The position numbers and the translations under genes are program-made. From Ignavibacteriota bacterium (GTDB taxonomy: Bacteria > Bacteroidota > Ignavibacteria > UBA10030 > UBA6906), in the NCBI GenBank assembly GCA_016218065.1, contig JACRFA010000179.1:1-38134 (forward strand): 38,134 bases of DNA, given 5' to 3'. Below the pieces are notes generated by a model. The model made no database searches. It had not been told where the DNA came from and saw nothing but the letters and a program-made list of their open reading frames with translations. Each line of letters starts with the position of its first letter. The first letter of the stretch is position 1. Shown here in pieces: positions 3,245 to 19,770 of this stretch.

Positions 3245-3362
3245 TCTTTCCTTTTGTTCGATCTCGCCTGAAGTTTTCTCTGATCAAAGTACGGGACTCT
3301 GCCATGAATTCCAAGATGACTTGCTACAGACTTGTCAGCAGCAGATTTTTTTCTTTGGTGTC

Positions 3363-3394
3363 TTGACTGAACACGCACATTAAGTGTATCTTTG
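3363..3394 (+). promoter_or_regulatory. Bacteroidota-type promoter for the BNR/T9SS gene
   Basis: TTGACT (3363-3368), an 18-base spacer, then TATCTTTG (3387-3394), which fits the TAnnTTTG -7 element of the Bacteroidota primary sigma factor exactly. The start codon at 3505 lies about 105 bases downstream, giving a moderately long leader, and is served by a strong AGGAGG ribosome-binding site at 3491-3496 with 8-base spacing. Confidence 0.6.
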
Positions 3395-3504
3395 CGCACG
3401 CTATGAAGCGTCTGTGAACTGTTCTTTGTGGTTTTGCCTCTGACGATGAAAACGAGACATCAATTCCATTTACATCACATTTCCATCATAAGGAGGCATC
3501 CACT

Positions 3505-6500
3505 ATGCTCACTCTACCGTTGCATTCTACCAGGCGCGTTTTGGCCTGGCTCATTTCTGCATTTCTGATCTTCACTCCTCACGCAAACGCCCAAACATCT
3601 GCGCGCCAGACGGGCGAAGAAAACGACCCGGATGTTCCTCCATTCGCACGCGGAATTGACAAAGCCGAATATCTTCGACAGCGCGGCGCGTACATTGATA
3701 TGCTTCGCGGTGTGCCGTATGAGACCGCCTACAACCCGCGCGTCAAAGCGATTCTCGAGATGCAGCGGCAACGCGCAGACTTCCGGCAGTCCATCAATGC
3801 AGCAGCGTGGACTTCTCTTGGTCCCGCGCCAATACCGAACGGACAAACAGAGGGAACGACGACTGCAGTCAGCGGACGCACAACAGCAATTGCCATTCAC
3901 CCCACAAACCCCAACATCATTTATGTCGGCACGGCGCAAGGCGGAGTCTATCGATCGCTTGATGGCGGCGCAACATGGACTGCAATCTTTGATGATGCAC
4001 TGTCGTTGGCAATAGGCGCGATAACCATTGCACCTTCGAGCACAACAACCGTCTATGTTGGTACCGGCGAGCCGCAAGGTTCGTGCGACAGTTTCTTCGG
4101 GGTCGGCGTTTATCGCATTACGAATGCGGAAAGCGGAAGCCCGACGCTTTCCGGTCCGTTCAATTCCAACGGCGTGAGCGATGTAATGACCGGCCGCGCC
4201 ATTGGCAACATTGTCGTGCACCCCACAAATGCGGATACAATCTTTGTTAGCACAACGTCCGGCATTGGCGGCATTGGATGCGAAGCATCTGCCAGTCTTC
4301 CCACGCGAGGACTCTATCGGTCGTCCAACGCGCTGACGACTTGCACGTTCACCCAAATGACCACGAGCGGAACAAACGCAAGTCACGTTGACGTTGCGAT
4401 GGATCCCAATAATCCCAATCGTGTGCTGTGTACAGTCAATGGCAGCCCGGGCGGAGTGTACCTTTCGACAAATGCGATGGCATCCATTCCCACCTTCACG
4501 CAGACCCAAAGCCTGACAAGTGTCCGCGCGGAGTTGGCGTTGCACAGCTCTGGTGGAGTTGTCACGGCGTATGTTGCATCGGGCGAATCAAGCGGCCGAC
4601 TGCGACGGTCAGCTGACGGCGGGGCAACGTGGTCTGCCGTGCTCACTGCTGCAAATGGGTACTGCGGCGGCCAGTGCTTTTACAACATCGCGATAGCAGT
4701 CGATCCCACCAATGCAAACAATGTTATGATTGGTGGGAATGTTACGGGCGCATCGACGCGCCTTATTGCCAAATCAACTGACGGCGGCACAACGTTCGTC
4801 AACGTTGCAACGGGAGTGCATGCCGATAATCATGTGGTTCGCTACGCTCCCTCCGATGCATCGGTGCTCTACATGGGAACCGATGGAGGCATTTACAAAT
4901 CCGTCAATGGCGGAACAACGTGGACGAGTCTCAACAGCACTGGCTTCAGCGCAACGCAATTTCAAAGTATCGCGCTTCATCCGACAAACTCGCTGTTCAC
5001 GATTGGCGGAACGCAGGACAACGGGACCGAATGGAGAAAGCCCGACGGATCGTGGACGAGAGCTGATTATGGCGACGGTGGCTATGCACTGATCGACCAG
5101 AACGCTCCGGATGATGTGAACGTTACCATGTATCACACGTACTTCAACCAAACAAACGCGATGGGATACGCACAAGTCCTCACCACGCTGAATGCCAGCG
5201 ACGATCTCTGGGGCTTCTACGGCTGCGGTTTTCTGGGCGCCATTCCCAACGGCATGACGTGTAGCGCAACGGCAATTCTTTTTTACGCACCGATGGCGCT
5301 TGGTCCCGGCAATCCCAACACCGTGTACTTCGGTTCCGACGTTCTTTATCGCTCGCCGAATCTTGGCGTCACAATGACGAAAGTCAGTCAGGAACCGATT
5401 ACTTCTGGCATCGCTATCAGTTCCATCGGCATCTCACCGCAGAATGACAACGTCCGTTTGGTCGGCTTGCGGAATGGCAAAGTGTACGCCACGACGACCG
5501 GTGCTTCGCCGCTTACGAACATATCAAGCGCATCATTTCCCGCGCGCTTTGTCGCCCGGGTTGCGGTTGATCCCAACGACGTCAACACTGCCTACGCGAC
5601 ATTCGGCGGGTTCGGCGTCGCCGCGGGACAACATATCTGGAAAACTACAAACTTGAATGGCGCGCCGCCAACGTGGTCAGCATCGGCAACAGGAATTCCG
5701 GATGTTCCTGTCAACGCGTTCGTTGTCGATCCGACAAACTCCAACAATCTCTTCGCGGGCACCGACATCGGCGTGTATGTTTCGACGGATGCTGGCGCGT
5801 CGTGGCTTCCGTTTGGTACAGGCCTGCCCGTGGCCGCGGTGTTCGATATGGCAATTCATCCCGTGACGCGTGCGCTTCGGGTGGCGACGCACGGACGCGG
5901 CATCTGGGAAATCAGCGGAGCGCCGCTGCCCGTGCAGCTGGCTTCCTTCACGGCGACGATGTACCACCAGAACGATGTTCTTCTTTCGTGGAGAACGCTG
6001 AGCGAGGTGAACAACTATGGTTTCGAAAGTGAGCGTGCGCTGGAGCGACGCGGCCCGTACTACACAATCCCTGGCAGCTTCATTGCGGGTCACGGCACGA
6101 CGTCGATTCCTCACGACTACAGTTACGTTGATACGACGGCGGAACCGCGGACATGGTTCTACCGGCTAAGACAGAGAGACCTGGACGGCTCAGTGCACTT
6201 TTCCGAGCCGGTTGAGATCAACACCCTGACTGGAGTTGCAGCGCAACAACCTCCGGAAGAATTCGGACTCGCGCAGAACTATCCCAATCCGTTCAACCCG
6301 ACAACGAAGATTCGTTACGCATTGCCGGCAGTTACGGACGTATTGCTGGAAGTGTACAACACCCTGGGTCAGCGGGTTGCAACGCTGGTCGATGGAAAAC
6401 AGGGCGCCGGTTATCATGATGTTGAATTCACTGCGTCGGGAATTCCGAGCGGCGTGTATTACTATCGGCTCAAGGCGGGCAACGAGGTTTCGACTCGTAA

Positions 6501-6519
6501 GATGGTTGTGATGAAATGA
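3505..6519 (+). CDS. Secreted BNR/Asp-box beta-propeller protein with type IX secretion sorting domain
   Basis: A 1004-residue exported protein. Residues 1-30 form a Sec signal peptide ending in ANAQ. Residues about 110-800 contain repeated propeller blades with Asp-box motifs (SLDGGATW near 150, SADGGATW near 367, STDGGTTF near 423, SVNGGTTW near 465, STDAGASW near 759), as in sortilin/VPS10-like and sialidase-type propellers. Residues about 810-905 are a beta-sandwich linker of the PVQLASFTA type usual before the sorting domain. The C-terminal 85 residues (from FGLAQNYPNPFNP) are a type A T9SS sorting domain, so the protein should cross the outer membrane by T9SS and be released or anchored at the surface. 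No catalytic residues of a glycosidase can be assigned, so its substrate is unknown. The ATG at 3505 is fixed by AGGAGG at 3491-3496. It ends before a strong hairpin terminator. Confidence 0.88.
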   Translation: MLTLPLHSTRRVLAWLISAFLIFTPHANAQTSARQTGEENDPDVPPFARGIDKAEYLRQRGAYIDMLRGVPYETAYNPRVKAILEMQRQRADFRQSINAAAWTSLGPAPIPNGQTEGTTTAVSGRTTAIAIHPTNPNIIYVGTAQGGVYRSLDGGATWTAIFDDALSLAIGAITIAPSSTTTVYVGTGEPQGSCDSFFGVGVYRITNAESGSPTLSGPFNSNGVSDVMTGRAIGNIVVHPTNADTIFVSTTSGIGGIGCEASASLPTRGLYRSSNALTTCTFTQMTTSGTNASHVDVAMDPNNPNRVLCTVNGSPGGVYLSTNAMASIPTFTQTQSLTSVRAELALHSSGGVVTAYVASGESSGRLRRSADGGATWSAVLTAANGYCGGQCFYNIAIAVDPTNANNVMIGGNVTGASTRLIAKSTDGGTTFVNVATGVHADNHVVRYAPSDASVLYMGTDGGIYKSVNGGTTWTSLNSTGFSATQFQSIALHPTNSLFTIGGTQDNGTEWRKPDGSWTRADYGDGGYALIDQNAPDDVNVTMYHTYFNQTNAMGYAQVLTTLNASDDLWGFYGCGFLGAIPNGMTCSATAILFYAPMALGPGNPNTVYFGSDVLYRSPNLGVTMTKVSQEPITSGIAISSIGISPQNDNVRLVGLRNGKVYATTTGASPLTNISSASFPARFVARVAVDPNDVNTAYATFGGFGVAAGQHIWKTTNLNGAPPTWSASATGIPDVPVNAFVVDPTNSNNLFAGTDIGVYVSTDAGASWLPFGTGLPVAAVFDMAIHPVTRALRVATHGRGIWEISGAPLPVQLASFTATMYHQNDVLLSWRTLSEVNNYGFESERALERRGPYYTIPGSFIAGHGTTSIPHDYSYVDTTAEPRTWFYRLRQRDLDGSVHFSEPVEINTLTGVAAQQPPEEFGLAQNYPNPFNPTTKIRYALPAVTDVLLEVYNTLGQRVATLVDGKQGAGYHDVEFTASGIPSGVYYYRLKAGNEVSTRKMVVMK

Positions 6520-6562
6520 GCGACCTGTCCTAACGGCGAATAAACCGTTGATCGTGAGACGA

Positions 6563-6595
6563 CAAAGCCCAGCATAAGCGCCGGGCTTTGTTGTT
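6563..6595 (+). terminator. Hairpin terminator of the BNR/T9SS gene
   Basis: CAAAGCCC (6563-6570) pairs perfectly with GGGCTTTG (6583-6590) across a 12-base loop and is followed by TTGTT. The stem sequence recurs after the other two sorting-domain genes in this window. Confidence 0.75.
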
Positions 6596-6731
6596 CTCCG
6601 GGCTTCACTCTCCAACTCGCAAACAACGACAACGTGTGTTGCTTCTCCCGCGCCTTCTTGATAAATTTCCTTGCGCGTGCAGCGCGCTATCGGTGTCTCT
6701 CATCGCGGGTCGGTCGAAATCCTGTATTCTT

Positions 6732-7835
6732 ATGATCAGTTCACTTCTTCAAGCGTCAAGCATGGTTGCCATCACGCAAGCTGTGCTGATGGCTATTGCT
6801 TTCCTACGAAACAAGAAGAGTTCGCGGACCAGCAACTACACACTCGCAGTTATGCTCGTTGTTTTTGCCGTGGTCAACGGATGCACGCTGACGCTGAATG
6901 TCTTCGCGCCCGGACTTCAGCCGCCGATCCAGAAGATGGTATTTGTTCTGAGCAATCTCGCGTTCCTCGTCGGTCCGCTTTTATTCTTCTACATTCGTTC
7001 ACTCCTGGATTTGAGTCGTCCTTTCGGCGGGACGGATTGGCTTCACGCCCTTCCCATGCTGGGAGCAATGGCGCTCTCCCTCATCTTCATACCAGGCGAT
7101 AGCTTTCGCGTTTGGCAATACCCCGGTCGAATTGTTATCAGTTCCGGGTTGTTGATACAGAGCTTTGTTTACTGCGCCCTATCGTTCAGGGAGCTTCGAG
7201 CGCACGGCGTGCCGCTGAAGTCGTTCCTCCCGTACATCGACAATGACCGGTTGGCGTGGGTGCGGTTCTTCATCGGCGGGTACATCGTGTTGTGGCTCAT
7301 CCAACTTCAACTCTTCATTGGGTGGGATGTGCTCAAGCATCCAACGTGGTGTCCGTACGCGACGAGTCAGTACTTTGTTGCTGCATTTCTCTTTTTCAAC
7401 GGAATGGTGTATATCGCATTGCGAAAGCCAGCGTTGTTTCATCAACAACAAAAATACAAAACGTCGGTGCTGAAGTTGGCAGATAAGGAACGGTATCGCG
7501 GCGAACTGTTGACGCTTATGATCGGTGAGAAAGTCTATCGCAATTCTGCGTTGACTCTTTCCATGCTCGCGCAAAAGCTTGACATCGCTCCGTGCCATCT
7601 TTCCCAAATCATCAATGAATCGATGAAGGTCAGTTTCCGCGATTTCGTGAACAGATACCGTATCGATGAAAGCAAGAATCTTTTGATACAGCAAGGTCAG
7701 TTTCTCAACATCCTCGGCATTGCTTGCGAGGTTGGCTTCAATTCCAAATCCGCGTTTAACAGCGCCTTCAAGAAACACACAGGCATTACCCCCAAAGAGT
7801 ACCGCAAACAGGCCTTCACCGCCGCCGCGGCGTAG
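6732..7835 (+). CDS. Membrane-anchored AraC-family transcriptional regulator
   Basis: The N-terminal ~230 residues carry about seven hydrophobic helices (for example around residues 10-25, 38-60, 75-95, 105-122 and 135-155), then a short linker. The C-terminal ~105 residues form an AraC/XylS double helix-turn-helix: a first HTH around SMLAQKLDIAPCHLSQIINE and the conserved second part around GIACEVGFNSKSAFNSAFKKHTG. It would act as a one-component regulator whose sensing part sits in the inner membrane; this architecture is common in Bacteroidota. The ligand is unknown. I chose the ATG at 6732 (MISSLLQ), giving 367 residues, because the frame upstream (from 6588) overlaps the preceding terminator and encodes an Arg-rich stretch with no membrane-protein character. 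No good Shine-Dalgarno precedes it. It lies between two T9SS cargo genes, which are plausible but unproven targets. Confidence 0.82.
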   Translation: MISSLLQASSMVAITQAVLMAIAFLRNKKSSRTSNYTLAVMLVVFAVVNGCTLTLNVFAPGLQPPIQKMVFVLSNLAFLVGPLLFFYIRSLLDLSRPFGGTDWLHALPMLGAMALSLIFIPGDSFRVWQYPGRIVISSGLLIQSFVYCALSFRELRAHGVPLKSFLPYIDNDRLAWVRFFIGGYIVLWLIQLQLFIGWDVLKHPTWCPYATSQYFVAAFLFFNGMVYIALRKPALFHQQQKYKTSVLKLADKERYRGELLTLMIGEKVYRNSALTLSMLAQKLDIAPCHLSQIINESMKVSFRDFVNRYRIDESKNLLIQQGQFLNILGIACEVGFNSKSAFNSAFKKHTGITPKEYRKQAFTAAAA

Positions 7836-7983
7836 TGATTCCCCTCCGCCTCTTCTCGAAAAACGTCCTGATATATAAAGTCGGACGATTTCACCGAACA
7901 AGCAGCGTATCTTCTCTGGAAAAAAAACATGAGCCGACCTCAGACAAAGGCCCATGACAATCATCCCAATGAAGGAACGACTG

Positions 7984-9693
7984 ATGAAAAAGCTGACGCT
8001 GACGATTATGCTGTTGATGATAACAACTCATCCCCTGTTTGCAGGAATACTGCGCGTGCCAAGTGAATACTCAACCATTCAAGGCGCAATACATGCCGCG
8101 CGCAATTCCGACACTGTGCTGGTTGCTGAAGGAACGTATTTCGAAAACATCAACTATCGGGGAAAGAACATTGTGGTGGCAAGCAATTACATCTTTACCC
8201 GAAACGTGCAGACAATTGTGAACACGGTGATTGACGGAAGCCACTTTACGAATGGAGATTCTGCCAGCGTTGCGGCTTTTCTGAACAACGAAGATTCGTC
8301 TGCGGTGCTTGACGGTTTCACGCTCACGGGTGGACGTGGAACGCGCTACCAGTTCGGGGCAAATATCGTTCAAGAGGGCGGCGGAATTATTCTCGACAGC
8401 AGCAGAGCAACAATTCGGAACAACATCATCATCAACAACAGTGTCGTTGGTGTGCCGCCCACAAACAGCGGCGGCGGGGGCGGGATTGCAACGATGTATG
8501 GCCAGCCGCGCATTTACAATAATCTCATCGTGTCGAACAAAGCGAGGTACGCCGCCGGAATGGTGCTGAACTGGTCGGGTGCGTACGTGAAGAACAACAT
8601 CATCTACCACAACATCGGCGGGGAGAGTTACGGAGCTGGCGGCATTATGATTTGGAAAGTGCCGGCAAACTCCGCGTTTGTCGAGAACAACACAATCGTC
8701 GGCAACATCTCGGCGCGGGATGCCGGAGGAATTTCTATCGCGCTCACCGGTATTGGCGTTCCACTCGTGAAGAACACTCTTGTGTGGGGAAACAGGCAAA
8801 CAATCGGCGGACAGGTGACGATGCCGGGATACGTCGCGTATTGCGACGTTGAAGATTATTCAAGCGGATCAAATTTCTCTCTTCCTCCATCGTTCGAGGA
8901 AGGTTCATTCCTGCTTCAATCAAACTCTGCGTGTGTCGATCGAGGAGATACCAACACCTCCTGCCTTGATGCACCCGATCCTGCGAATCCATCGAGCGCA
9001 TTGTTTCCCTCGCGCGGCACGCGACGAAATGATGTCGGAGCGTTTGGCGGTTCGTTTGCGAAGGTCCTCCCGTTGCTGAATGTGTTTGATTTCTATCTGT
9101 CGAACACCAGCCCTTCCATACGCTGCAACGTTGGCGCTGTTGGAACCATCGGGGTTGAGTTTCTCAATCTCAGCTCAACAAGGGTGAGTGTAGATAGCAT
9201 CGTCTGTGGCACATCGCTGTTTCACGTTGGCGCTAACATGCATGGACGGATGCTTGGTCCTTTGGAGAACGATACGATTATCGTTTCAGCAATCCCCGTT
9301 GTGGCCGGAAGTTTCCGCGACACGCTGCGAATCTATCACACCGCGACAGGGATCCAGAATCCCGTGCGACTACCGGTTTCGTTAACAGCAGATCCTTCCG
9401 TTGGCGTGAACCTCGAACGCGCGCTTCCGAACAAGTATGCACTCAATCCAAATTATCCCAATCCGTTCAATCCATCGACGCGCATTTCGTACGATGTGCC
9501 TTCGACAAATGACATCAGCATAAAACTGTTCGACATGCTCGGAAGAGAAATCGGAACGCTCGTCAGAGGTGTTCATCAGCCGGGGAAATACTCACTTCGT
9601 TGGGACGCGCAGAATTGCGCAAGTGGAACGTACATTTGCCGAATGCAAGCAGGCGCTTTCACACAGTCAACCAAACTGCTGTTGATGAGATGA
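7984..9693 (+). CDS. Secreted parallel beta-helix protein with type IX secretion sorting domain
   Basis: A 569-residue exported protein. It starts with a signal peptide (MKKLTLTIMLLMITTHPLFAG) and then a right-handed parallel beta-helix of the pectate-lyase/NosD class. The opening SEYSTIQGAIHAARNSDTVL and GTYFENINY motifs are typical of these folds, followed by coils rich in N-N-I-I repeats up to about residue 300. Next comes an immunoglobulin-like region (about 370-470). The final 80 residues (from YALNPNYPNPFNP) are a T9SS type A sorting domain. Most proteins of this kind bind or cleave polysaccharide, but no catalytic site can be assigned. The ATG at 7984 is preferred over the one at 7954 because AAGGA (7972-7976) is correctly spaced and the signal peptide starts there. 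A terminator follows at 9713-9747. Confidence 0.87.
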   Translation: MKKLTLTIMLLMITTHPLFAGILRVPSEYSTIQGAIHAARNSDTVLVAEGTYFENINYRGKNIVVASNYIFTRNVQTIVNTVIDGSHFTNGDSASVAAFLNNEDSSAVLDGFTLTGGRGTRYQFGANIVQEGGGIILDSSRATIRNNIIINNSVVGVPPTNSGGGGGIATMYGQPRIYNNLIVSNKARYAAGMVLNWSGAYVKNNIIYHNIGGESYGAGGIMIWKVPANSAFVENNTIVGNISARDAGGISIALTGIGVPLVKNTLVWGNRQTIGGQVTMPGYVAYCDVEDYSSGSNFSLPPSFEEGSFLLQSNSACVDRGDTNTSCLDAPDPANPSSALFPSRGTRRNDVGAFGGSFAKVLPLLNVFDFYLSNTSPSIRCNVGAVGTIGVEFLNLSSTRVSVDSIVCGTSLFHVGANMHGRMLGPLENDTIIVSAIPVVAGSFRDTLRIYHTATGIQNPVRLPVSLTADPSVGVNLERALPNKYALNPNYPNPFNPSTRISYDVPSTNDISIKLFDMLGREIGTLVRGVHQPGKYSLRWDAQNCASGTYICRMQAGAFTQSTKLLLMR

Positions 9694-9712
9694 TTGTTGA
9701 AGGATGAAGGTG

Positions 9713-9747
9713 CGAAGCCCGGCGCGGTGAACGCGTTGGGCTTTGTT
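9713..9747 (+). terminator. Hairpin terminator of the beta-helix gene
   Basis: CGAAGCCC (9713-9720) pairs with GGGCTTTG (9738-9745) with one G-U pair, followed by TTGCTTC. It is the same stem as after the BNR gene, and it lies directly against the 3' end of the convergent ABC permease gene, so it may serve both directions. Confidence 0.65.
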
Positions 9748-9750
9748 GCT

Positions 9751-11169
9751 TCAAGAACTCAATCCAACGTCAGCGTAGCGAAGTGTACGCAATCGCGCTC
9801 GCATTGCCAACAGACAAATCGCAATTCCAACGATCGTGATCAACCAATGTGAAATCAAAACTCCGTTGGTTTCATTCGTCAGCGCCGATAGGATGTTTAG
9901 CTCCGTCAGCCAGGTTCGGCTTGCAAAGAAGGTTTGAACGTCGTCACGGAGTTGGATATAGACGAAGAACAGGAGAATCAGATTCGCGACGCCGGATGTC
10001 TGACTGATCACTGCGAAGCACAAATTTATGATGCTGAAAAACACGTTCAGCGCGAGCAGATACAGTGTGAACTCTGCCGGAAACGTTTGAACAAAAAAAC
10101 CGAACAGCACGATATAGGTGAACGTCGCCAACAACTGCGGGAGAAGCATGAGAAGCCAGCGGTTCATAATGATGTGGGAATACGGAATGCTCCTGAGAAA
10201 GTTATTATGCATCATCCCCGCGTCCCAATCGATTCTGATAAGGTGGTATTGATTGAATGAGAAGAGGCATGGCAGGAGCGCACCAAAATATATTTTTGCA
10301 AGCGGAAGGAGGTTCGCATCCTTGCGGCCAAACAGTGGAATGAGAAGCAGTAGTCCAACGAAGCTGAAGAACCCGAGAATTTTCCGGCTCGAAAGCCCCA
10401 TCATCTTGAAGTGATGCATGGAAATGTCTGCGCCCATCCGCTCGGCAATTCGTGCGAGAATACCTTTGCCAAAAGGTTCGGTCAATTCAACGTGAAGTAT
10501 TTTTCTTGCCTCATGTTGACCAACAAGAATTGCCGCAAATATACAACAGAGCCAGGTAATGTATGCCTGCGGCGAATCACGCTCAGTGAGAATCCAGAAC
10601 TGATTGAACACTTGGCCTTGAAAGAAGATATTTGCAAACTGCGACACTCCATACAGGAACGCAACAATGACGAGAGTGCCAAACTCGTTGCGCAGACGCG
10701 TGAACACACTTACTGTTGCAACAATCCAAAAGAGTATGTACCCGAAGACTCCACAAAGGGCTTTCAATCCAAACACTGCTGGACGCACGTTCGCCGGAGC
10801 GTACAGGAGCTGTTGCACAAGCGCAGTTGCATACGCGGGAAGCGCGAAGCCCAGCAGAAAGTACAACAGGTAACTGACTACCAGTCCCCAGAAGAGTTTT
10901 TCGTTTGTCAGTCGTGAGGCGAGAATCTCACGCCGACCAAGTTTCAATTCGCTTCTGAAATGTGAGACGATGAAAAAGAGAAAGTTCAAAAAGACAATCG
11001 ACATCAAGACCACATCATAGACCGACGTGAGCCTGTTGCTACTGTAGATAGCCGCGGGGTCGAACTCCGGTTCAGCCATGAGCCATGCAACTGAATAGTA
11101 CAGCGTGATGACGATTAGGTGAGTTGGCGTGATGAGAGACGTGAGGCTATGTCGAATGAAAGGCGTCAT
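9751..11169 (-). CDS. ABC transporter permease-like integral membrane protein
   Basis: A 472-residue polytopic membrane protein with about 11-12 hydrophobic helices and no signal peptide or soluble domain. Its start overlaps the stop of the ATPase gene by 4 bases, so it is translationally coupled and is most probably the membrane partner of that ATPase. The size and single-chain layout resemble Bacteroidota ABC-2-like permeases (DUF5687-like), but I cannot confirm the family from recognisable motifs. The conserved-looking cytoplasmic-face stretch RIDWDAGMMHNNFLRSIPYSH (around residues 310-330) may be the coupling region. Substrate and direction of transport are unknown; ABC-2-type systems of this shape are normally exporters. 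It is the last gene of a three-gene operon. Confidence 0.68.
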   Translation of the reverse strand: MTPFIRHSLTSLITPTHLIVITLYYSVAWLMAEPEFDPAAIYSSNRLTSVYDVVLMSIVFLNFLFFIVSHFRSELKLGRREILASRLTNEKLFWGLVVSYLLYFLLGFALPAYATALVQQLLYAPANVRPAVFGLKALCGVFGYILFWIVATVSVFTRLRNEFGTLVIVAFLYGVSQFANIFFQGQVFNQFWILTERDSPQAYITWLCCIFAAILVGQHEARKILHVELTEPFGKGILARIAERMGADISMHHFKMMGLSSRKILGFFSFVGLLLLIPLFGRKDANLLPLAKIYFGALLPCLFSFNQYHLIRIDWDAGMMHNNFLRSIPYSHIIMNRWLLMLLPQLLATFTYIVLFGFFVQTFPAEFTLYLLALNVFFSIINLCFAVISQTSGVANLILLFFVYIQLRDDVQTFFASRTWLTELNILSALTNETNGVLISHWLITIVGIAICLLAMRARLRTLRYADVGLSS

Positions 11170-12053
11170 TGCTTTGCGTTGCTACCTGAGTTTCCGAACA
11201 CCCGATAGGCTTCCTCCAATGTTGGCTCAACATGATTGCTTCCATGGATGTCGGAAAATCTTCCATCAAATCGAACGAGGAGTTCTTTCCCATCCTGTGC
11301 GATGTTCAATATTCTTAGCTTCTGTTTAAGCTCATCAGTAAACTCCTGCCTCTGCATTCTCACTTCCTTCACACACTGTTGTGCTGATGCGATAAGCTCA
11401 GCAGGTGTTCCCTGGAATTGAATCTTCTCATCCCCCACAATCATCAGCGTTGAGCATAGCCCTGCCAATTCATTCACGATATGCCCGATGAACAAGACGA
11501 TGCCCTCATCGGCCCTCTTCAGTAAATAGTCATGAAAGCGATGTCGTTCTTCAGAATCCAAATTATTTGTCGGCTCGTCGAGAAAGAGAACGGTAGGCTT
11601 GTGGATAACTGCCTGCGCGATTGCGGCGCGTTGTTTCGTTCCGCCGGAGAGATGACCAATTGGTGTGTTCTTGTATGATTGCAGATTGAGGTTTGCAGTC
11701 ACTTCTTCAATCCGTTCGCCGCGCGCGCTTCGTCGCTTCCAACCCGAAAGTAGCAGCATGTAATCCAGGTACTCGCCCACCGTCATCCGCTCGTAGAGTC
11801 CGGGCGATTGTGGCAAGTAGCCAATGTTCTCGCGCCAGAATTGGGACTCGAGATTCAGTTTCTCTCCATTGAAGAGAAACTCCCCGCGCTGAGGCGGAAG
11901 CAGTCCGGCTAGAATCCGAATCAGCGTTGTCTTACCCGCACCATTTGTACCGAGAACGCCGATGATGCCGGTTTGAATTCGGCCTGAGACGTTTTCAAGC
12001 ACAACTCTTTCGTCGAATCGTTTTGTTAGAGAATCAAACCTCAGTTCGTTCAT
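11166..12053 (-). CDS. ABC transporter ATP-binding protein
   Basis: A 295-residue ABC ATPase with all nucleotide-binding motifs: Walker A GTNGAGKTT (about 35-43), Q-loop in YLPQSPGLYERM (about 79-90), signature LSGGTKQR (about 139-146), Walker B VLFLDEPTNNLD (about 160-171) and a His-containing switch (FIGH, about 193). It has a ~70-residue C-terminal extension after the core domain, as in many CcmA/export-type ATPases. It overlaps both neighbours by 4 bases (ATGA type), so it forms one translational unit with the FG-GAP protein upstream and the permease downstream. By family it should energise the permease encoded next to it. Confidence 0.9.
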   Translation of the reverse strand: MNELRFDSLTKRFDERVVLENVSGRIQTGIIGVLGTNGAGKTTLIRILAGLLPPQRGEFLFNGEKLNLESQFWRENIGYLPQSPGLYERMTVGEYLDYMLLLSGWKRRSARGERIEEVTANLNLQSYKNTPIGHLSGGTKQRAAIAQAVIHKPTVLFLDEPTNNLDSEERHRFHDYLLKRADEGIVLFIGHIVNELAGLCSTLMIVGDEKIQFQGTPAELIASAQQCVKEVRMQRQEFTDELKQKLRILNIAQDGKELLVRFDGRFSDIHGSNHVEPTLEEAYRVFGNSGSNAKQ

Positions 12054-13270
12054 GGTCGTTTGCTTCCGGACGTCGGAAGCTTCGGAGTCTTCAATTCCAG
12101 AAATCTGATTTTCTGGCGGCTACTCTGCGTTATGATATCCAGGTAGCCGTTCCCATCAATATCCGCGACAACAACGTATGTTTGATTGAACTTCTTGTGT
12201 TCCTTTTTCAACTCGAAATCCATTATCAATTTTCCACTTGAGCCATCAAGGATGGAGAGCATCAAGTCATAGTCGCATACACTGAAGACCTCAGGAATGC
12301 CATCTCCGGTAATGTCGTAGAACGCGAGAGGCATTTGGTTTTCATTCTCTGCCTCGTACACCCACTTCACCGTGAAGTCCTTCGGGTCGATGCAGTAAAT
12401 GTTCTCATCAACCGACGGAGAAACAATTTCGTTCTTTCCATCGCCATTCATGTCTTTGAAATACATTCGTGTCAGCAATCCTGCATTGTTCGCGTCGCCG
12501 CGGAATTGCTCCTTCTTCAAAACCACTTCTCCCGATTTGGGCTTGATCTTGTAGAGATCACCGCTGGATGTCCTCGCGTAAACAAGATTATCGTCTGGGT
12601 TCCAGTAAGGCCGCATCCACCACCCAGGAAAAACACCGAGAGAAATTCCCATGAACTTCGCTTTTCTTTCTCCCGCATCTATCTTCCACTGCATTTTCTT
12701 TTCGTTGAGGTTGAACGCGAAGAGATCGCGTCTCCGGGCATTGTAAACTACCAGACCGTCAACGTAGTAACTGTATTCACCCGTTTGTCTCTTAAGCCGA
12801 GCTATGCTGTCGAGGTCAGGGAATTGATACACATCCACAATGGTGTCATTTTCTGCCACAAGAAGTTCGGACGTTTTATCTTTGTATGCACGATAATGTG
12901 TATAGAGATCGTGCGGCAATCTCTGTGAAGGAGCCTTTGCAGTTTTGAAATCATCGAAGTTCAGCCCGTATAATTCTTGCGTTTCAAAGAAATACAGGAT
13001 GTTGTTGTGCAAATACGTGTCGCCCCAGTACACGAAGCTCCGAACACCCACCCTTTGAAACACCAATTCGCGCTTGGCATTGAAGACCTTCAAGCCGCCC
13101 TTGCGCAGTAATACAAGCAAGTAGTATTGGTTATTGTCGGTGTTTCGCTCCAAGTAGAAGTCGTTGATTTCGCCGTCGTTGATGTCGATGGTGCCTGTCT
13201 CGAAAAGGTCTTGTGATGCAGCAAATGAAAATCCAATGAACAGCGCCAGAACACAGAGAATTGTTCTCAC
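12050..13270 (-). CDS. Exported FG-GAP/VCBS-type beta-propeller protein, first gene of ABC operon
   Basis: A 406-residue exported protein. The signal peptide is residues 1-19 (MRTILCVLALFIGFSFAAS). The body is a propeller with PQQ/WD-like blades in the first half and three Asp-rich calcium-binding FG-GAP loops in the second half: DMNGDGKNEI (about 275-284), DITGDGIPEV (about 322-331) and DIDGNGYLDI (about 370-379). It lacks a lipobox and a T9SS sorting domain, so it is probably periplasmic. The start is GTG at 13270, supported by GGAGGT at 13274-13279. The gene overlaps the ABC ATPase by 4 bases, and the pairing implies that this protein serves the transporter, perhaps as a periplasmic sensor or accessory subunit. 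That role is inference: it does not resemble a periplasmic solute-binding protein. Confidence 0.78.
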   Translation of the reverse strand: MRTILCVLALFIGFSFAASQDLFETGTIDINDGEINDFYLERNTDNNQYYLLVLLRKGGLKVFNAKRELVFQRVGVRSFVYWGDTYLHNNILYFFETQELYGLNFDDFKTAKAPSQRLPHDLYTHYRAYKDKTSELLVAENDTIVDVYQFPDLDSIARLKRQTGEYSYYVDGLVVYNARRRDLFAFNLNEKKMQWKIDAGERKAKFMGISLGVFPGWWMRPYWNPDDNLVYARTSSGDLYKIKPKSGEVVLKKEQFRGDANNAGLLTRMYFKDMNGDGKNEIVSPSVDENIYCIDPKDFTVKWVYEAENENQMPLAFYDITGDGIPEVFSVCDYDLMLSILDGSSGKLIMDFELKKEHKKFNQTYVVVADIDGNGYLDIITQSSRQKIRFLELKTPKLPTSGSKRP

Positions 13271-13434
13271 ACGAACCTCCGGGTTAAGTTGTGTTTCCGT
13301 GGTGATTATTGAAAGGAAAGAACGGGCGTGACGTTTAGTTGGCGATCAGCAGATTGAAAGCCGAAGAGTATGCCCTGCCACATTAGATGGGACGATTGAA
13401 ACTACTCAAAGTTGCAGAATGCTATTGCACCGAG

Positions 13435-15444
13435 TCAATCTCTAAACCCCGCACTAATTTTCTCCAACTCCTTCGTCACTTCACCCCACTTGAAGTAGAT
13501 GTCCGCTAGCTCGGCTTCCAGCGCTTTGTATTGCGCGGTCACATGCTTCACCTTCTCGCCATCCTTGTAGAAGTCGGCATGGCCCATCAGTTCTTCGAAG
13601 TCAGCTTTCTGTTTTTCCTTCGCTTCGATTTCCCGTTCGAGCTTGTAGATTTTTTGCTGAACGGGTTTCGTCAGGTGTGAACGCTTCTGGCGTTGCTCGG
13701 CTTCAATGCGTTTGCGATCCTTGTCGGAGAGCTTTGGTTCTTCCCGATGAGTCGCCGATGATCCGATTTGCCGGGAGTCGTTGATTTTCTTTTTCTGTTC
13801 TTGCTGCGCGGCAACGCTTGCTGCTTGCGCGGAGTTCTGTTCCTTCTGCTTCGCGTAAATGTATTCACTGACGTTGCCGAGATAGGTTTTGATCCGGCCT
13901 TTTCTGAACTCAACAACTTTGTTCACAATCGGATCGAGGAAGTCACGGTCGTGCGAAACGATCACGTAGCTTCCTTCAAAGTTCATCAGCGCCTGCTGCA
14001 TCACGGCTTTGGAACGCATGTCGAGATGGTTCGTCGGCTCATCCATCACGATGAGGTTGCACGGCTGCAAGAGCATCTTCGCCAACGCGAGACGGCTTTT
14101 CTCGCCGCCCGAAAGGACGCCAACTTTCTTGAACACATCGTCGCCGCTGAAAAGGAAGCAGCCGAGGAGATTGCGAAGCGTCCTGCGGATTTCTCCCGTG
14201 GCCACCTCATCAACTGTTCCCAGCACATCATTCCTCGGGTTCAGTTCATCTGCCTGATGCTGGGCGAAGTAGGAGACGATAACGTTGTGCCCGACCTTGC
14301 GTTCGCCCGACTCGAACGGCTCGACGCCGGCAATGATCTTCGACAGGGTTGACTTGCCCGCGCCGTTCACACCAACAAATGCAATCCGGTCGCCGCGGTC
14401 GATGTCGAAGTCGATGCCATTGAAGATGTGCTTCTCGCCATAGCTTTTGTGAATGTCTTTCAGCTCCATTGCCACGCGCCCGCTTGGCGGCGCCGGCGGA
14501 AAGTTGAACCGGATGCCGCTTTCTTCATCCTCGATCTCCACCATCTCCATTTTCTCAAGCTGCTTAATGCGGCTTTGCACCTGTCGGGCTTTTGTTGCCT
14601 TATACCGAAATCGCTCGACAAACTGTTCAGTCTGTTTGATTTGCTGTTGCTGATTGCGGAACGCCGCAAGCGTCAGTTGTTTGCGCTCTTCTTTCTCCAC
14701 AACAAAATAGCTGTAGTTGCCGCTGTACTCCGTGAGTTTGCCGAGACTCAGCTCATACGTCTTGGTCGTCATGTTATCGAGAAAGCGCCGGTCATGCGAG
14801 ACAACAATCACCGCGCCTTCATACGATTGCAGATATTCCTCAAGCCACTGCAATGAGTCGAGATCGAGATGGTTTGTCGGTTCGTCGAGAAGCAATAGTG
14901 ATGGTTGGATGAGAAGAAGCTTGGCCAGTGCAATACGCATCTGCCAGCCGCCGCTGAACTCATCGGTTTGCCGATCCATGTCATCGACGGAAAAGCCGAG
15001 ACCGAGAAGCACTTTCTCGATCTTCGCTTTCATCCGGAACGCATCGCTGTCTTCGAGCTTGTGCTGCAACTCGCCGTAGAGTTCGAGCAGTTCCGTGAAC
15101 TCATCATCTTCGTGCGACACCATGCCCATGCGTTCGTGAACTTCTTCAAGTCGCGATTGCGCTTCAAGCACATCGCCAAAAGCGGTCTCGACTTCCTTAT
15201 ACAGCGTCCTCCCTTCGACGTGCATTCCTTCTTGCGGCAGGTACCCGACGGTGACGTACTTAGCTTTTGCCACTTCACCTTTGTCTGAGGATGCTTCGCC
15301 GAGGAGAAGCTTGAGGAGTGTGGATTTCCCCGCGCCGTTGGACCCGACAAGCCCGATCCGGTCATGCGTTCCGACGCGGAACGAGACGTCTTTGAAAAGT
15401 TCGCGACCCCCGAAGGAGAGTTGTATGTTGACTGCAGAAATCAT
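13435..15444 (-). CDS. ABC-F family ATPase (ribosome-associated)
   Basis: A 669-residue protein with two fused ABC domains and no membrane segment. Domain 1 has Walker A GSNGAGKST (34-42), signature SGGWQMR and Walker B LLLLDEPTNHLD. An ABC-F linker of charged helices follows (around residues 245-300, with QQQQIKQTEQFVERFRYKATKARQ). Domain 2 has GVNGAGKST, LSGGEKSR and IVMDEPTNHLD. The last ~130 residues form a Lys/Glu-rich coiled coil as in Uup and related members. By family it binds the ribosomal E site and acts on translation; the exact subtype (Uup-like, YheS-like or other) is not certain. I chose the ATG at 15444 (MISAVNIQLSFGG), the conserved ABC-F start; the open frame further upstream has no family homology and is Cys/Arg rich. 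It is divergent from the unknown gene at 15665. Confidence 0.9.
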   Translation of the reverse strand: MISAVNIQLSFGGRELFKDVSFRVGTHDRIGLVGSNGAGKSTLLKLLLGEASSDKGEVAKAKYVTVGYLPQEGMHVEGRTLYKEVETAFGDVLEAQSRLEEVHERMGMVSHEDDEFTELLELYGELQHKLEDSDAFRMKAKIEKVLLGLGFSVDDMDRQTDEFSGGWQMRIALAKLLLIQPSLLLLDEPTNHLDLDSLQWLEEYLQSYEGAVIVVSHDRRFLDNMTTKTYELSLGKLTEYSGNYSYFVVEKEERKQLTLAAFRNQQQQIKQTEQFVERFRYKATKARQVQSRIKQLEKMEMVEIEDEESGIRFNFPPAPPSGRVAMELKDIHKSYGEKHIFNGIDFDIDRGDRIAFVGVNGAGKSTLSKIIAGVEPFESGERKVGHNVIVSYFAQHQADELNPRNDVLGTVDEVATGEIRRTLRNLLGCFLFSGDDVFKKVGVLSGGEKSRLALAKMLLQPCNLIVMDEPTNHLDMRSKAVMQQALMNFEGSYVIVSHDRDFLDPIVNKVVEFRKGRIKTYLGNVSEYIYAKQKEQNSAQAASVAAQQEQKKKINDSRQIGSSATHREEPKLSDKDRKRIEAEQRQKRSHLTKPVQQKIYKLEREIEAKEKQKADFEELMGHADFYKDGEKVKHVTAQYKALEAELADIYFKWGEVTKELEKISAGFRD

Positions 15445-15664
15445 GGCAACCAATATACGAAATTCTCGTGAGCGACAGAAGGTCAATGCAATGGCCTGGC
15501 CACTCCGCGTTGCTATGCAAATCACTTTTGTGTAGCTTGCTTTACGTATGCACGCGCACTCAGTTCTCACCTGCAGGCTTCGGGAAAATCTTCGCGCTGT
15601 TCTTGGCGGACAATGTTCGCCTCAACAACTCAATACCATCGTCAATGTGTGTCTCTCATTGGCG

Positions 15665-16579
15665 ATGGAGTTATTGAGCAGAAAAAGGATGAGCAGCAGC
15701 AGACTTTCCTCACAACAAGGGCTAAGCGAACACGACTTGGCTTTTGACTCCATTGCCGATCTGTTTCAACGCGATGCGAAAGGAAGCTTCGTTCAGCTGG
15801 AAGCATATTTGTCGAGCTTCGACATGGTTGCGGTGTCTGATGAAGAACTTCTCGTCTATCTCCGCAGGCTTGTTTACTCCAGAGTCAATCAGGCGCTCTT
15901 CCGAATGTACCACGAGGTTGATCCTCTCTTTTCCAAAATTCTTCGCAATCTCAAACTCGCTCTTCAGGCGATGAAGCAGTTTGATGAAATCGACAGATTT
16001 GGGGAAAACTACCTCGTGCCCGTACTCTGCGATACGTTAGAACATCTGCCAGCACTCGAACCCGATCTGATCAAACAACATCTCTGCTCTGCGTGTATCG
16101 GAACAGAAAATATTCCCCAGATGCTTGGGAGGCTTGCCTTCTTCCTCAGACAACAGGAAAGCAACTCTCGGATTATCTCCATGATGACGGTTGCAAATGT
16201 CTTTCAATCGGTGTATGCGATCATGAACCGACCGTTGCTTGCCGAGCCGTCTGTGGAAACGGACATGATTACGAACGACACGGCAGCAACAATCAAGTCC
16301 GTCTGCCGAAGCGTCAAAAGGGAAATGATGGCAGCATATGTCGGGAAGAACAAAGTTAGTGAACAAAACTACGATACCTACTTCGAAGTCATCGAAGCGA
16401 ATATGATCGCACGCTTCGTTATGCAGGATGGAGATGACCAATCATATCTTGAGTTACTCAAAACGAGAATCCCGGATCTGACGCCCGAAGAGTACAAGAA
16501 GCAACACCGGGCGAAACTGGAATATCTTGGAGCGCTCGCGCACAAACTCGCGATTAAGAAACTGAAATCAGTTGTGTGA
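15665..16579 (+). CDS. Conserved-looking hypothetical protein, soluble, all-helical
   Basis: About 304 residues from the ATG at 15665 (an ATG at 15689 and one upstream at 15548 are alternatives; none has a convincing Shine-Dalgarno). I do not recognise the family. The product has no signal peptide or membrane segment and is predicted mostly helical, with long amphipathic stretches (for example the region around NLKLALQAMKQFDEIDRFGENY) and a basic C-terminus ending in KLAIKKLKSVV. Codon use looks normal for the region and the frame is undisturbed, so I take it as a real gene. It is divergently arranged with the ABC-F gene and is followed by a repeat-rich spacer. Confidence 0.6.
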   Translation: MELLSRKRMSSSRLSSQQGLSEHDLAFDSIADLFQRDAKGSFVQLEAYLSSFDMVAVSDEELLVYLRRLVYSRVNQALFRMYHEVDPLFSKILRNLKLALQAMKQFDEIDRFGENYLVPVLCDTLEHLPALEPDLIKQHLCSACIGTENIPQMLGRLAFFLRQQESNSRIISMMTVANVFQSVYAIMNRPLLAEPSVETDMITNDTAATIKSVCRSVKREMMAAYVGKNKVSEQNYDTYFEVIEANMIARFVMQDGDDQSYLELLKTRIPDLTPEEYKKQHRAKLEYLGALAHKLAIKKLKSVV

Positions 16580-16684
16580 ACCGTTTGGGAATGAAGACAA
16601 CCACGAAGTTGCGAAGACATGAAGGAGTTGTTTGAAGGTGATTGGCGTAAGTCCTTTTCTTTATTCGTGCCTTTGTTCTTCGTG

Positions 16685-16725
16685 CCTGCCTGCCGCCTGC
16701 CTGCCGGTAGGCAGGGTAGGCAGGG
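16685..16725. repeat. GC-rich nested palindromic repeat (CCTGCC family)
   Basis: CCTGCCTGCCG occurs twice in tandem (16685-16695 and 16696-16706), followed by two copies of GTAGGCAGG (16707-16715 and 16716-16724). The two halves are near-perfect reverse complements and can form one long hairpin. It lies in the spacer between the hypothetical gene and the zinc-finger/FG-GAP gene. The following TTTTCTC could make it act as a terminator. Confidence 0.7.
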
Positions 16726-16787
16726 TTTTCTCTCAGTTTTTTTGTCGGACTTTCAGCGAGAGAGCAAGAATGTCACTCAGATGAGGT

Positions 16788-18236
16788 ATGATGCAGCATA
16801 TCGATGAACATAGCCTTGAATTGTACGTTCTGAATTCCGATGCGGTGCAATCGCGACGTTATGAGATTCAGGAACATCTCACGCAATGCGCAGGCTGCCG
16901 CTCTCTGGTTGAGCAAATGACCGCATCGTATCGGAGTGTCGAGGAGCAGTTCAAGAAATTGGAGGCAAGTGCTTCCTCTTCTTCGCAGGCTCTTGAACGA
17001 TTGCGCACGAAGTCAGTTGAATTCGCTCAACCGAAGTCACCCGCGGTTTCGTATCGCCCGGTGACACGCTTTCAAAACATGCAGTACTTTGTTCGCCAAC
17101 ATCCCGTTGTTGTAGGAAGCGGCTCGTTCCTTGCGCTTGCCGGACTCGCGCTTCTAGGCAATCTTGCATTCAAGACGCCATCCTTGAGAGATCAAAACCC
17201 GGTTACGAGTCACAACAATCCCCAATCGCAGGAAGTCGAGATCCTTAACAAATCGCGACAAATTCTTTGGACGCTCCCAACGCGCGGATTGGCTGCCGAG
17301 GTGAGAAATTGGGACACACAAACGGTCGTCACCAGTCTGAACGGGGATGGCATCAACGAAGTCCTCACATCAATGTGGCTGCCCGGCGACCCCGCTATTG
17401 GAAAGAATCAGCCGTTTCGAGTTTTTAGTTCAGAAAAGGAACTTCTCCACGAGTTTCATTTTACCGCCCCGATCAGTTATGCTCAAAGGAATTATCCCTA
17501 TAGCTGGACACCGAGCAACATCGTGGCTGGAAATATTTCAAGCATCGAGCGGAAGGATATTCTTATCACTTGGCGATGCGAGCGGTCTCCGTCCGTTATT
17601 ACCCGGTTAGATGCGGATGCAAAGGAGTTGGGACAGTACTGGCACATGGGAGCTCCGATGGCAATGTCTCTTGTTGACCTCGGTCGAGATGGAAAGCAAG
17701 AGCTGGTTCTCATGGGACGTAATGACACTGAGGACTCTTCCGGCAATGAATTCCCGGCAATTGTTGTGCTCGATCCGAGCCGAATTGTGGGAGCGAAAAA
17801 ATCAGTCGCAGCCCAGGCGTTTCATCTGCCTCTCTCAGACGCTGAACTGTATTACGTGAAACTGCCAACGTCGTCCATGAGTAAGGCACTGCTCAAAACT
17901 GACGGTGTATTTCGTCTTTTCAATCTATCCGACAGTCTCCTCACCTTTACCACTTCAAGTGACTTCGAAGAAACTGAGTCAAGGGTCAGCTTTGAGTACA
18001 CATTCTCACGAGACATGAAGGTTGTTCAGGTGAAGTCTGACGATGCCGGCCCCGCCGTGTATGAGAAGCTCGTGAAGCAGGGAAAGCTCACCGGCAAACT
18101 CGACCAGAAGTATCTGGATGATTTGAAAAAAGGCGTGCGGTATTGGGATGGAACGGAGTGGGTGAAGGAGGCGGTGAAGATACGACATGGACAGGAATTG
18201 TCAATGGTCAATGGACAATTGCCAGTTGACAATTGA
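16788..18236 (+). CDS. Zinc-finger (anti-sigma-like) transmembrane protein with FG-GAP-like C-terminal domain
   Basis: A 482-residue protein with an unusual build. Residues 1-50 look like a zf-HC2 anti-sigma zinc-binding domain, with the His-x3-Cys-x2-Cys motif in EHLTQCAGCRSL (about 29-40). A basic linker follows, then one transmembrane helix (about 104-125, VVVGSGSFLALAGLALLGNLAF). The C-terminal ~300 residues are outside the cytoplasm and carry FG-GAP-like loops (SLNGDGINEVL around 184-194 and VDLGRDGKQELVL around 287-299), suggesting a propeller. No sigma-factor gene is adjacent, so an anti-sigma role is inference. Start ATG 16788 or 16791 (GAGG at 16783-16786 is close to both). The last ~14 residues and the stop codon come from a heptanucleotide repeat (18195-18236), so the native C-terminus may have been shorter. 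Confidence 0.75.
   Translation: MMQHIDEHSLELYVLNSDAVQSRRYEIQEHLTQCAGCRSLVEQMTASYRSVEEQFKKLEASASSSSQALERLRTKSVEFAQPKSPAVSYRPVTRFQNMQYFVRQHPVVVGSGSFLALAGLALLGNLAFKTPSLRDQNPVTSHNNPQSQEVEILNKSRQILWTLPTRGLAAEVRNWDTQTVVTSLNGDGINEVLTSMWLPGDPAIGKNQPFRVFSSEKELLHEFHFTAPISYAQRNYPYSWTPSNIVAGNISSIERKDILITWRCERSPSVITRLDADAKELGQYWHMGAPMAMSLVDLGRDGKQELVLMGRNDTEDSSGNEFPAIVVLDPSRIVGAKKSVAAQAFHLPLSDAELYYVKLPTSSMSKALLKTDGVFRLFNLSDSLLTFTTSSDFEETESRVSFEYTFSRDMKVVQVKSDDAGPAVYEKLVKQGKLTGKLDQKYLDDLKKGVRYWDGTEWVKEAVKIRHGQELSMVNGQLPVDN
18195..18236. repeat. Heptanucleotide short tandem repeat forming the 3' end of the zinc-finger/FG-GAP gene
   Basis: Six consecutive, slightly diverged 7-mers: GAATTGT, CAATGGT, CAATGGA, CAATTGC, CAGTTGA and CAATTGA. 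More degenerate units may follow to about 18257. The stop codon TGA at 18234-18236 is the last three bases of the sixth unit. Repeat number therefore decides where the protein ends. Confidence 0.75.
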
Positions 18237-18263
18237 ACATCGGACGTTGACCAATGATCGTTT

Positions 18264-19520
18264 TCAGTTCTCCAGAAGCCACTTCCAGATTGGCGTGAAC
18301 TTCACGACACGATGTATTCCAAACCAGTCCGTCGTTTCAGTCGCTTCGTAGCTTCCTGTCAAGACGAGAAGATCGTCGCACTTCAGTTCTTTGCTTGCTT
18401 TGAGCAATGATCGCAACTCGCGCACACGCGTCGAGGCTGCGTCGATGTTCGTGCATACTTGAATGAGTTGCCGCGTTTGCGTCCCTTCGCGCAAGACGAA
18501 ATCAACTTCTTCTTGTTGCGCGTTTTTCCAGAACGTGAATCGAAACTCGCCGTTCAACTCGCGCCGTCGCAGTTCAATCGCCACGACGTTTTCGCACAAT
18601 CGCCCATAGTCGGGGCTTGTCTTGAACGCCCGCGCATGAATGAAGCCGTTGTCAATGCAGTAAAGTTTTTTGTTGGACGCAACTTGCTCTTTCACTTTGA
18701 AGGAAAAGCGATTGATGGAAAAAATCAAAAATGCTTCCTCGAGATAGGAAAGGTAGTTCTTCACTGTCTGGTCGCTCTTGGCGCCGCTTACTACGGCAAG
18801 AGTCTTGAATGAATATTCTTTCGCAACATTCGAAAGCACGTATGTTCCCAAGTCGTCAATCGCCGTGGAAAACCGAATAGCATGCCGCTTCACGATGTCT
18901 TTGTACAAAATGGACTCGAACAGCGTGGACAAGTATGCACGTGCATCCAAACGTTTTACAACAGGTTCGGGATAACCGGTTGACTCGACATACCGCGTAA
19001 ACTGTTCAGCCATTTCGGACGCGGTAAATTCCCGCCCAGCCGCGGCGATGAATTCGCTAAACGAAAATGGAAAGATAGAGATCGGGATGTGTCGCCCCGT
19101 GAGATGCGTCGCCAATTCGCGGCTCAGTAATTTCGCATTGCTTCCCGTGATTACTACGTTGTAACCCTCTCGATGCAACCGATTGACGAATAGTTCCCAC
19201 CGCGGGAGATTCTGAATTTCATCCATCAGAATACTTCGCGTCTCGCCGTACACTAAGCGAAGAGCGGCGAGGATGTCGTCACAATTGTCAGTTGTCGCAA
19301 GTCGCTCGTCATCGAAATTGACGTACGCGAAATTCGCTTTGCCCTGCAGCGCGTGTTGAGCGTAAAACGATTTGCCCGCACGCCTGGGCCCGATGATCAC
19401 TTTGACCAGCGGACTTTGAAGCGCCCGATTGTCAACCCTTCTTACGACGAATGGCTCAGCCGCGGCTCTTTCAAACTCACGTCTTTGGGAAACAATCGCA
19501 TCTCGTAGATTTTCTTTCAT
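18264..19520 (-). CDS. AAA-type ATPase, DUF4143 family
   Basis: A 418-residue P-loop ATPase. The Walker A motif GPRRAGKS is at about residues 43-50, Walker B with sensor-like context in ILMDEIQNLPRWE (about 96-108), and TGSNAKLLSREL is the sensor region. The C-terminal half is the DUF4143 domain (restriction-endonuclease-like fold with an acidic FTFWKNAQQEEVDFVL stretch). Proteins of this kind are very common, often multicopy, and of unknown function; roles in mobile elements or DNA-end processing have been suggested but are not established. I start it at ATG 19520 (MKENLRDAIV); the frame extends upstream to 19625 but there it reads through a hairpin and an inverted repeat. A perfect 13-bp inverted repeat begins 17 bases upstream of the start. 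Confidence 0.85.
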   Translation of the reverse strand: MKENLRDAIVSQRREFERAAAEPFVVRRVDNRALQSPLVKVIIGPRRAGKSFYAQHALQGKANFAYVNFDDERLATTDNCDDILAALRLVYGETRSILMDEIQNLPRWELFVNRLHREGYNVVITGSNAKLLSRELATHLTGRHIPISIFPFSFSEFIAAAGREFTASEMAEQFTRYVESTGYPEPVVKRLDARAYLSTLFESILYKDIVKRHAIRFSTAIDDLGTYVLSNVAKEYSFKTLAVVSGAKSDQTVKNYLSYLEEAFLIFSINRFSFKVKEQVASNKKLYCIDNGFIHARAFKTSPDYGRLCENVVAIELRRRELNGEFRFTFWKNAQQEEVDFVLREGTQTRQLIQVCTNIDAASTRVRELRSLLKASKELKCDDLLVLTGSYEATETTDWFGIHRVVKFTPIWKWLLEN

Positions 19521-19537
19521 TTCGCACACCCAGGATG

Positions 19538-19575
19538 TTGTATCACGAGAAAATATAGAAAATCTCGTGATACAA
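19538..19575. promoter_or_regulatory. Perfect 13-bp inverted repeat, candidate operator
   Basis: TTGTATCACGAGA (19538-19550) and its exact reverse complement TCTCGTGATACAA (19563-19575) are separated by a 12-base A/T-rich spacer. It sits just upstream of the DUF4143 ATPase start (minus strand) and about 200 bases before the plus-strand gene at 19771. The A/T-rich loop and lack of a T-run argue for a protein-binding site or an element end rather than a terminator. Confidence 0.6.
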
Positions 19576-19610
19576 TGAAAGGAGTAAGAAGTTTTCAGAA
19601 TATTGTACCT

Positions 19611-19653
19611 CCCGCCTCGTCCCAATTATTTGGGAGGGGCGGGATCTTTTGTT
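19611..19653 (+). terminator. GC-rich hairpin followed by T-rich tract
   Basis: TCCCAA and TTGGGA pair around a TTAT loop, extended by CCCGCCTC with GGGGCGGG (one bulged G and one G-U pair), and followed by ATCTTTTGTTT. On the plus strand this resembles an intrinsic terminator; it may also be a member of the dispersed GC-rich palindromes of this genome. It lies in the spacer upstream of the 19771 gene, so it would block read-through into it. Confidence 0.5.
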
Positions 19654-19770
19654 TGAGGTTTTCGGCAGGGATAACAGGGTGCAATACAAGATAAGGTAGA
19701 TTCGCGATCTTCATTGTTGGGCGCCAGCGATACAACAATCAGAGTCATCACTTACGAAAGGAACATAGTA

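Follow-up and report, generated by a model that had tools for sequence, protein, structure and literature searches.

Whether an apparently exported propeller protein, an ABC ATPase and a permease encoded one after the other in an Ignavibacteriota bacterium work together as one transporter, and of which kind, is the question raised by this locus, which lies in a window (the whole stretch of DNA that was analysed) of 38,134 nucleotides. The three genes, hereafter the cassette, follow each other head to tail on the minus strand in the order propeller, ATPase, permease (Table 1), and the open reading frames, together with two ATGA overlaps, bear out the claim of an earlier sequence-only reading that they overlap by 4 bases each. 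Its further claim, that these overlaps imply a complex, does not hold. At the four relative loci described below, neighbouring genes either overlap slightly or stand up to about 100 bases apart (the cassette genes lie one or two bases apart at L103, and 74 bases separate ATPase and permease at L105), the 4-base overlap being found in the window only. Moreover, at L058 a gene that, on reading its sequence, resembles a prolyl oligopeptidase shares 4 bases in just this way with a different ABC ATPase gene, and such an overlap is thus a weak argument for a complex. Neither tRNAs nor Rfam families were detected in the window.

Table 1. Coordinates of the features in the window and at the four relative loci.
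Feature	Locus	Position	Strand	Remarks
tRNA-methyltransferase gene, flank	window	1817-3244		common to congeners
Insert stretch, 10.2 kb	window	3245-13434		absent at this place from congeners G001 and G002
Two large exported proteins with secretion-sorting tails	window	3505-6519 and 7954-9693		beside the cassette
Permease gene	window	11169-9751	minus	472 aa; 12 predicted helices (2 x 6); orphan family
ATGA overlap, ATPase stop / permease start	window	11166-11169	minus	seen in the sequence
ABC ATPase gene	window	12053-11166	minus	295 aa; motifs intact; C-terminal extension common to family members
ATGA overlap, propeller stop / ATPase start	window	12050-12053	minus	seen in the sequence
Propeller gene	window	13270-12050	minus	406 aa; GTG start; signal-like N-terminus; no lipobox seen; FG-GAP/PQQ-type
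Ribosome-binding stretch with GGAGG	window	13271..13285	minus	directly before the propeller GTG start
ABC-F gene, flank	window	13435-15570		common to congeners
Relative locus	L103 (genome G601)			same order and strand
Relative locus	L104 (genome G597)			propeller cut by contig end; one extra gene between propeller and ATPase
Relative locus	L105 (genome G682)			one extra gene between propeller and ATPase
Relative locus	L106 (genome G595)			propeller partly masked; same order and strand
Apparent ranthipeptide-type cluster	L105 (genome G682)	2972-11709		maturase, precursor candidate, Rce1-like membrane protein, exporter
57-aa precursor candidate	L105	10059-10232	minus	strong ribosome site
Extra gene, ~300 aa	L105	7637-8539		between propeller and ATPase
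Extra gene, ~300 aa	L104	2570-3466		between propeller and ATPase

Conservation of the arrangement is more telling. A search of 391 genomes of the class with the permease alone, accepting E values up to 1, gave a match in 22 of them. One is the genome of the window itself and four others hold full-length relatives (44, 37, 35 and 30% identity; E 2e-120 to 4e-54); the remaining 17 gave short stretches (E 0.002 to 0.4), which were set aside. Upstream of the permease in all four relatives lie, on the same strand, a propeller (28-37% identity) and then an ATPase (42-52%), so that the three-gene order, which the sequence-only reading had proposed to look for in other genomes, does recur. It is kept across five loci whose permeases share 24-43% identity pairwise, the neighbourhood of propeller and ATPase being interrupted by one gene in two of the four relatives (L104 and L105). 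When 164 genomes of the order to which G601 belongs were searched with a profile of the five permeases, the same four were retrieved, plus one short stretch with stops (E 3e-4) that was likewise set aside. In these 164 genomes the propeller profile (E <= 1e-12) matched only the four cassette genomes; as these had supplied rows of the profile they match by construction, and the informative genomes are the other 160, among which no propeller of the cassette family without a permease was found. The objection, foreseen in the earlier reading, that the propeller might stand next to unrelated genes in related genomes therefore finds no case there. The mirror-tree distance correlation between permease and propeller is not significant, being reached by 15 of 120 label permutations. 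Judged from the recurring gene order, the association of propeller, ATPase and permease is more than chance, and it is carried by conservation, the overlap proving little.

Outside this set, the permease found no relative (E <= 0.001) in 99 other genomes searched nor, as a single sequence at the same threshold, among the 394 other genomes of a 395-genome phylum sample, and its profile returned only the window's own match in 345 phylum genomes; these genome samples overlap and their counts are not additive. The propeller matched in 17 of 100 genomes searched, over its full length only in that of the window, the other matches being partial FG-GAP stretches. Scans of genome contigs with the propeller and with the permease, and of plasmids and viral contigs with the permease, gave nothing useful. 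The cassette is a rare unit, scattered over distantly related bacteria.

The propeller of the window starts with a hydrophobic, signal-like stretch and matches FG-GAP_3 in Pfam at 45.6 bits (cut-off 26.9; 1.1e-11), PQQ_2 matching weakly; by this repeat match and its DxDxDG-type loops it is an FG-GAP propeller. Among three relative propellers scanned, FG-GAP_3 was just above the cut-off in one and under it in two. Three DxDxDG-type loops occur, of which loop 2 (from residue 319) is present in all five members and loop 1 in four of the five, whereas loop 3 is variable or unreadable among them. The calcium loops named by the sequence-only reading are thus a partly correct description. Loops of FG-GAP type mostly bind calcium, for stability. 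Residue 293 of the window propeller is a Cys, within a YC motif, that is invariant in all five members, and the alignment holds no invariant partner Cys.

The ATPase matches ABC_tran in Pfam (1.9e-33 for the window protein), and Walker A, Q-loop, SGG signature (LSGG-type), Walker B and H-loop are intact in all five ATPases, as in a genuine ABC ATPase. It lies outside the families defined by the PQQ-ABC model TIGR03864 (131.5 against a cut-off of 302 bits), the lantibiotic-protection model TIGR03740 (117 against 310 bits) and the gliding motility GldA model TIGR03522 (145.9 against 402.6 bits). When its profile was compared with the PDB, the best sequence matches were nucleotide-binding domains of ABCA lipid transporters, with LptB among the 60 matches listed; nearness to ABCA is weak evidence for what would be an outward movement of amphipathic or lipid cargo. 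A role of the cassette as a defence system was considered and rejected, PADLOC giving no match for propeller or permease and matches for the ATPase that look generic.

No Pfam or NCBIfam model matched the window permease above cut-off, no ABC-2 match was obtained in Pfam or NCBIfam for the permeases of L105 and L106 (those of the window, L105 and L106 were scanned), and the permease profile had no PDB sequence match. The permease thus falls in no family named in Pfam, NCBIfam or the PDB, which leaves without an instance the other objection foreseen, that of a family whose known partner is different. Hydropathy averaged over the five members gives 12 candidate helices, and alternating loops are positively charged, a charge bias that fits an N-in/C-in topology; the positive loops 72-91 (after helix 2) and 306-338 (after helix 8) are at the places of ABC-2 coupling helices, and the best-kept motif, FNQY...D..(A/S)GM...N.LR, sits in the loop after helix 8. 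These predicted features fit a permease made of two fused six-helix ABC-2 halves. The designation as ABC-2-like is drawn from the predicted helix count and the loop charge; no family model of the ABC-2 type was matched. Single-sequence AlphaFold models (pLDDT 33 and 46) were too poor to judge a contact between propeller and permease.

Compared with three ABC-2-type sets, the permease profile showed no significant link; of those sets only one pair find each other, and the DUF5687 set also misses the other two, so that this comparison speaks neither for nor against the fused halves. DUF5687 and related Bacteroidota ABC permeases (470-530 aa) resemble the cassette permease in being single chains of similar length, and in a motif. 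Membership in DUF5687 was nevertheless rejected, because the similarity of profiles (hhalign E 0.008 when only the window sequence was used) was gone with the five members (E 0.52). Kinship to the ~520-aa permeases encoded beside the nearest ATPases of closer relatives was rejected too, as these form a different group with varied upstream genes. These pairs of an ABC ATPase and a ~520-aa permease, at L052-L062, include the L058 overlap case.

To find an ABC permease accompanied by an exported propeller is less unusual than had been supposed, PedA2 of PedA1A2BC being a precedent. PedA1A2BC is a lanthanide ABC system in which PedA2 is a YVTN propeller, its role being given as unknown (PMC6839425). 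Both systems have an exported beta-propeller, an ATPase and a permease in one operon, and the parts of the cassette correspond to PedA2, PedB and PedC, a counterpart of the binding protein PedA1 being absent; PedA1A2BC differs by its substrate-binding protein, by its propeller family and by being regarded as an importer. No match up to E 0.1 was obtained between the window propeller and TIGR03866, the YVTN-type propeller model of the PQQ-ABC/PedA1A2BC system, to which the cassette does not belong. In nosDFY the gene order is that of an exported beta-repeat protein, an ATPase and an ABC-2 permease, the same as in the cassette. NosDFY differs in that NosY, with six helices, acts as a dimer, and in that the whole serves copper-site assembly. 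NosD, which presumably docks on NosFY, is a beta-helix, whereas the exported part of the cassette matches FG-GAP and PQQ propeller models, which sets it apart from NosDFY. LanFEG with LanI, and YydIJ, are also alike in being ABC-2-type pumps of peptide clusters, LanI acting as an extracytoplasmic helper, but their helpers are not propellers and the cassette mostly stands without a peptide cluster. LanF proteins carry E in the Q-loop position (E-loop), whereas all five ATPases here have Q and the TIGR03740 score is low, placing the cassette outside LanFEG. YydIJ is an ABC pair in a peptide operon for which self-protection was proposed and which proved a minor resistance factor at most (PMC7026026). 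Among the matches listed in the literature search, none dealt with the combination of propeller, ATPase and permease by its title or the start of its abstract. The cassette is accordingly a new variant among those ABC systems that have an exported partner, its permease family being unnamed, and not a new category; the earlier suggestion of an undescribed transporter type was too strong, although an undescribed variant is supported.

What the cassette may act upon is suggested by one of the five loci, that of G682, the only one with a peptide cluster. A same-strand run there comprises a radical SAM/SPASM maturase, a 57-aa ORF, the propeller, an extra gene, the ATPase, the permease, an Rce1-like protein and an exporter with fused membrane and ATPase parts, which is the second ABC system of the run and separate from the cassette. 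The 57-aa ORF ends in ICTYIDYSSSCEEVDRCGVDFT and has two Cys-X3-Asp motifs and one Cys-X2-Asp; it is a candidate precursor only, because no precursor model of NCBIfam matched it. Against the nif11-like peptide model the maturase scored 395 bits (cut-off 519), and against the PapB model 322 bits (cut-off 340), PapB being an enzyme that joins Cys and Asp in Cys-X3-Asp motifs (PMC8172795). No counterpart of the maturase was found in G000 (the genome of the window), G601, G597 or G595, and next to the cassettes of the window, L103 and L106 no ORF was seen that resembles a precursor and has a ribosome site. The extra genes of G597 and G682 share 44% identity, contain two DDxxD motifs each and are confined to these two among the 164 genomes; one of the two copies gave a sub-threshold polyprenyl synthetase match (E 0.0036), comparison of the product with the PDB gave nothing useful, and the product looks like a class I isoprenoid-synthase fold. 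The setting in G682 hints that the cassette exports, or protects against, modified peptides.

We give about an even chance to the reading that the three genes encode one envelope ABC machine, in which a periplasmic propeller docks on the permease and which probably serves to export peptides or lipids or to protect the cell itself. Two ATPase subunits would drive the permease, a fused pair of six-helix ABC-2-type halves, while the exported propeller would sit in the periplasm as the permease's dedicated partner, docked on its outer side in the style of NosD on NosFY. With each ATP cycle the permease and the docked propeller would move, and a compound would thereby be lifted from the outer leaflet of the inner membrane, or released there, for the propeller to take up or hand on. 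The data themselves show the gene order and co-occurrence, the intact motifs of the ATPase, the prediction of 12 helices, the signal-like start of the propeller and the scattered distribution, whereas complex formation, the direction in which transport runs and docking of the propeller are what we infer. As to the cargo, our guess is a modified peptide that is exported, or else a compound linked to a lipid, the purpose being self-protection or final export.

A special case of this machine, possible though somewhat doubtful, would be a RiPP self-protection module, found in non-producers as an orphan resistance cassette: the ABC-2-type pump would expel the peptide from the membrane and the propeller would catch it outside, as LanFEG does with LanI. 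The sporadic occurrence and the absence from congeners fit a resistance cassette, and so does the G682 run, where exporter and cassette lie beside the maturase, the precursor candidate and an Rce1 protease-type membrane protein; yet a single locus has the peptide cluster, and the Q of the ATPase, in place of the E of LanF, and its score on the lantibiotic-protection model speak against it. In plan the G682 run resembles yydFGHIJ or lantibiotic clusters, but the yyd ABC pair is itself not the main resistance factor in that system (PMC7026026). An unlikely alternative is a periplasmic loading or assembly machine of NosDFY or PedA1A2BC style, whose propeller would carry a metal or cofactor while the ABC pair drives its transfer. 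The nosDFY gene order, the parts equivalent to PedA2, PedB and PedC, the metal-type loops and the invariant Cys 293 all suit such a machine. However, of the neighbours of the five loci that were searched against family models none was recognised as a binding protein or a metalloenzyme, the ATPase falls short of the PQQ-ABC model, the propeller is outside the YVTN family, and its loops are of a type that mostly serves calcium binding and stability. That the propeller is a surface or periplasmic protein merely co-transcribed with an unrelated ABC exporter we regard as quite improbable: overlaps and tight spacing are common in operons, as between the peptidase-like and ATPase genes of L058, but the order is kept at five of five loci despite the divergence of their permeases, with an intervening gene at two, and no propeller stands alone in the 164 genomes.

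As to the origin of the cassette, the tRNA-methyltransferase and ABC-F genes are adjacent in both congeners (8-20 bases apart by protein alignment), at the place where the window holds the 10.2 kb stretch that contains the cassette, an AraC regulator and the two large exported proteins. Only the sorting tails of these two proteins match anything at the four relative loci. The G+C content of the cassette is 48%, against 53-55% in neighbouring stretches common to the congeners. Since it is rare and lies inside a stretch missing from both congeners, the cassette is probably mobile and, because its occurrence is scattered, gain by the lineage of the window appears likelier than several losses. A wider proposal, tentative and in our view rather unlikely, is that of a mobile class of propeller-coupled pumps in Gram-negative bacteria, with a permease family of its own, which at the periplasmic side of the inner membrane would handle peptides made by radical SAM enzymes and, in two members, an isoprenoid-linked compound. 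Such a class would be a self-protection system against peptides, with the beta-propeller as the helper on the outside.

Few systems are known in which an ABC-2-type pump has an exported partner, and the reason for a periplasmic propeller on a pump is unknown even for PedA2 (PMC6839425). With a scattered cassette of three genes that is apparently self-contained, the question of why the propeller is needed becomes directly testable. If the link to peptides is true, the cassette would mark self-protection genes, and hence new peptide clusters in poorly studied bacteria.

Two minor observations concern the flank of the cassette. The ABC-F gene probably starts later than the GTG at 15570 that is listed for it, the congeners aligning only from residue 31 or 41. 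Beside this gene lies a second stretch (15571-25173) whose larger genes have no counterpart at that place in either congener; among the products encoded there are an anti-sigma-like protein (16788-18236) and an ATPase of AAA_14/DUF4143 type (18264-19625).
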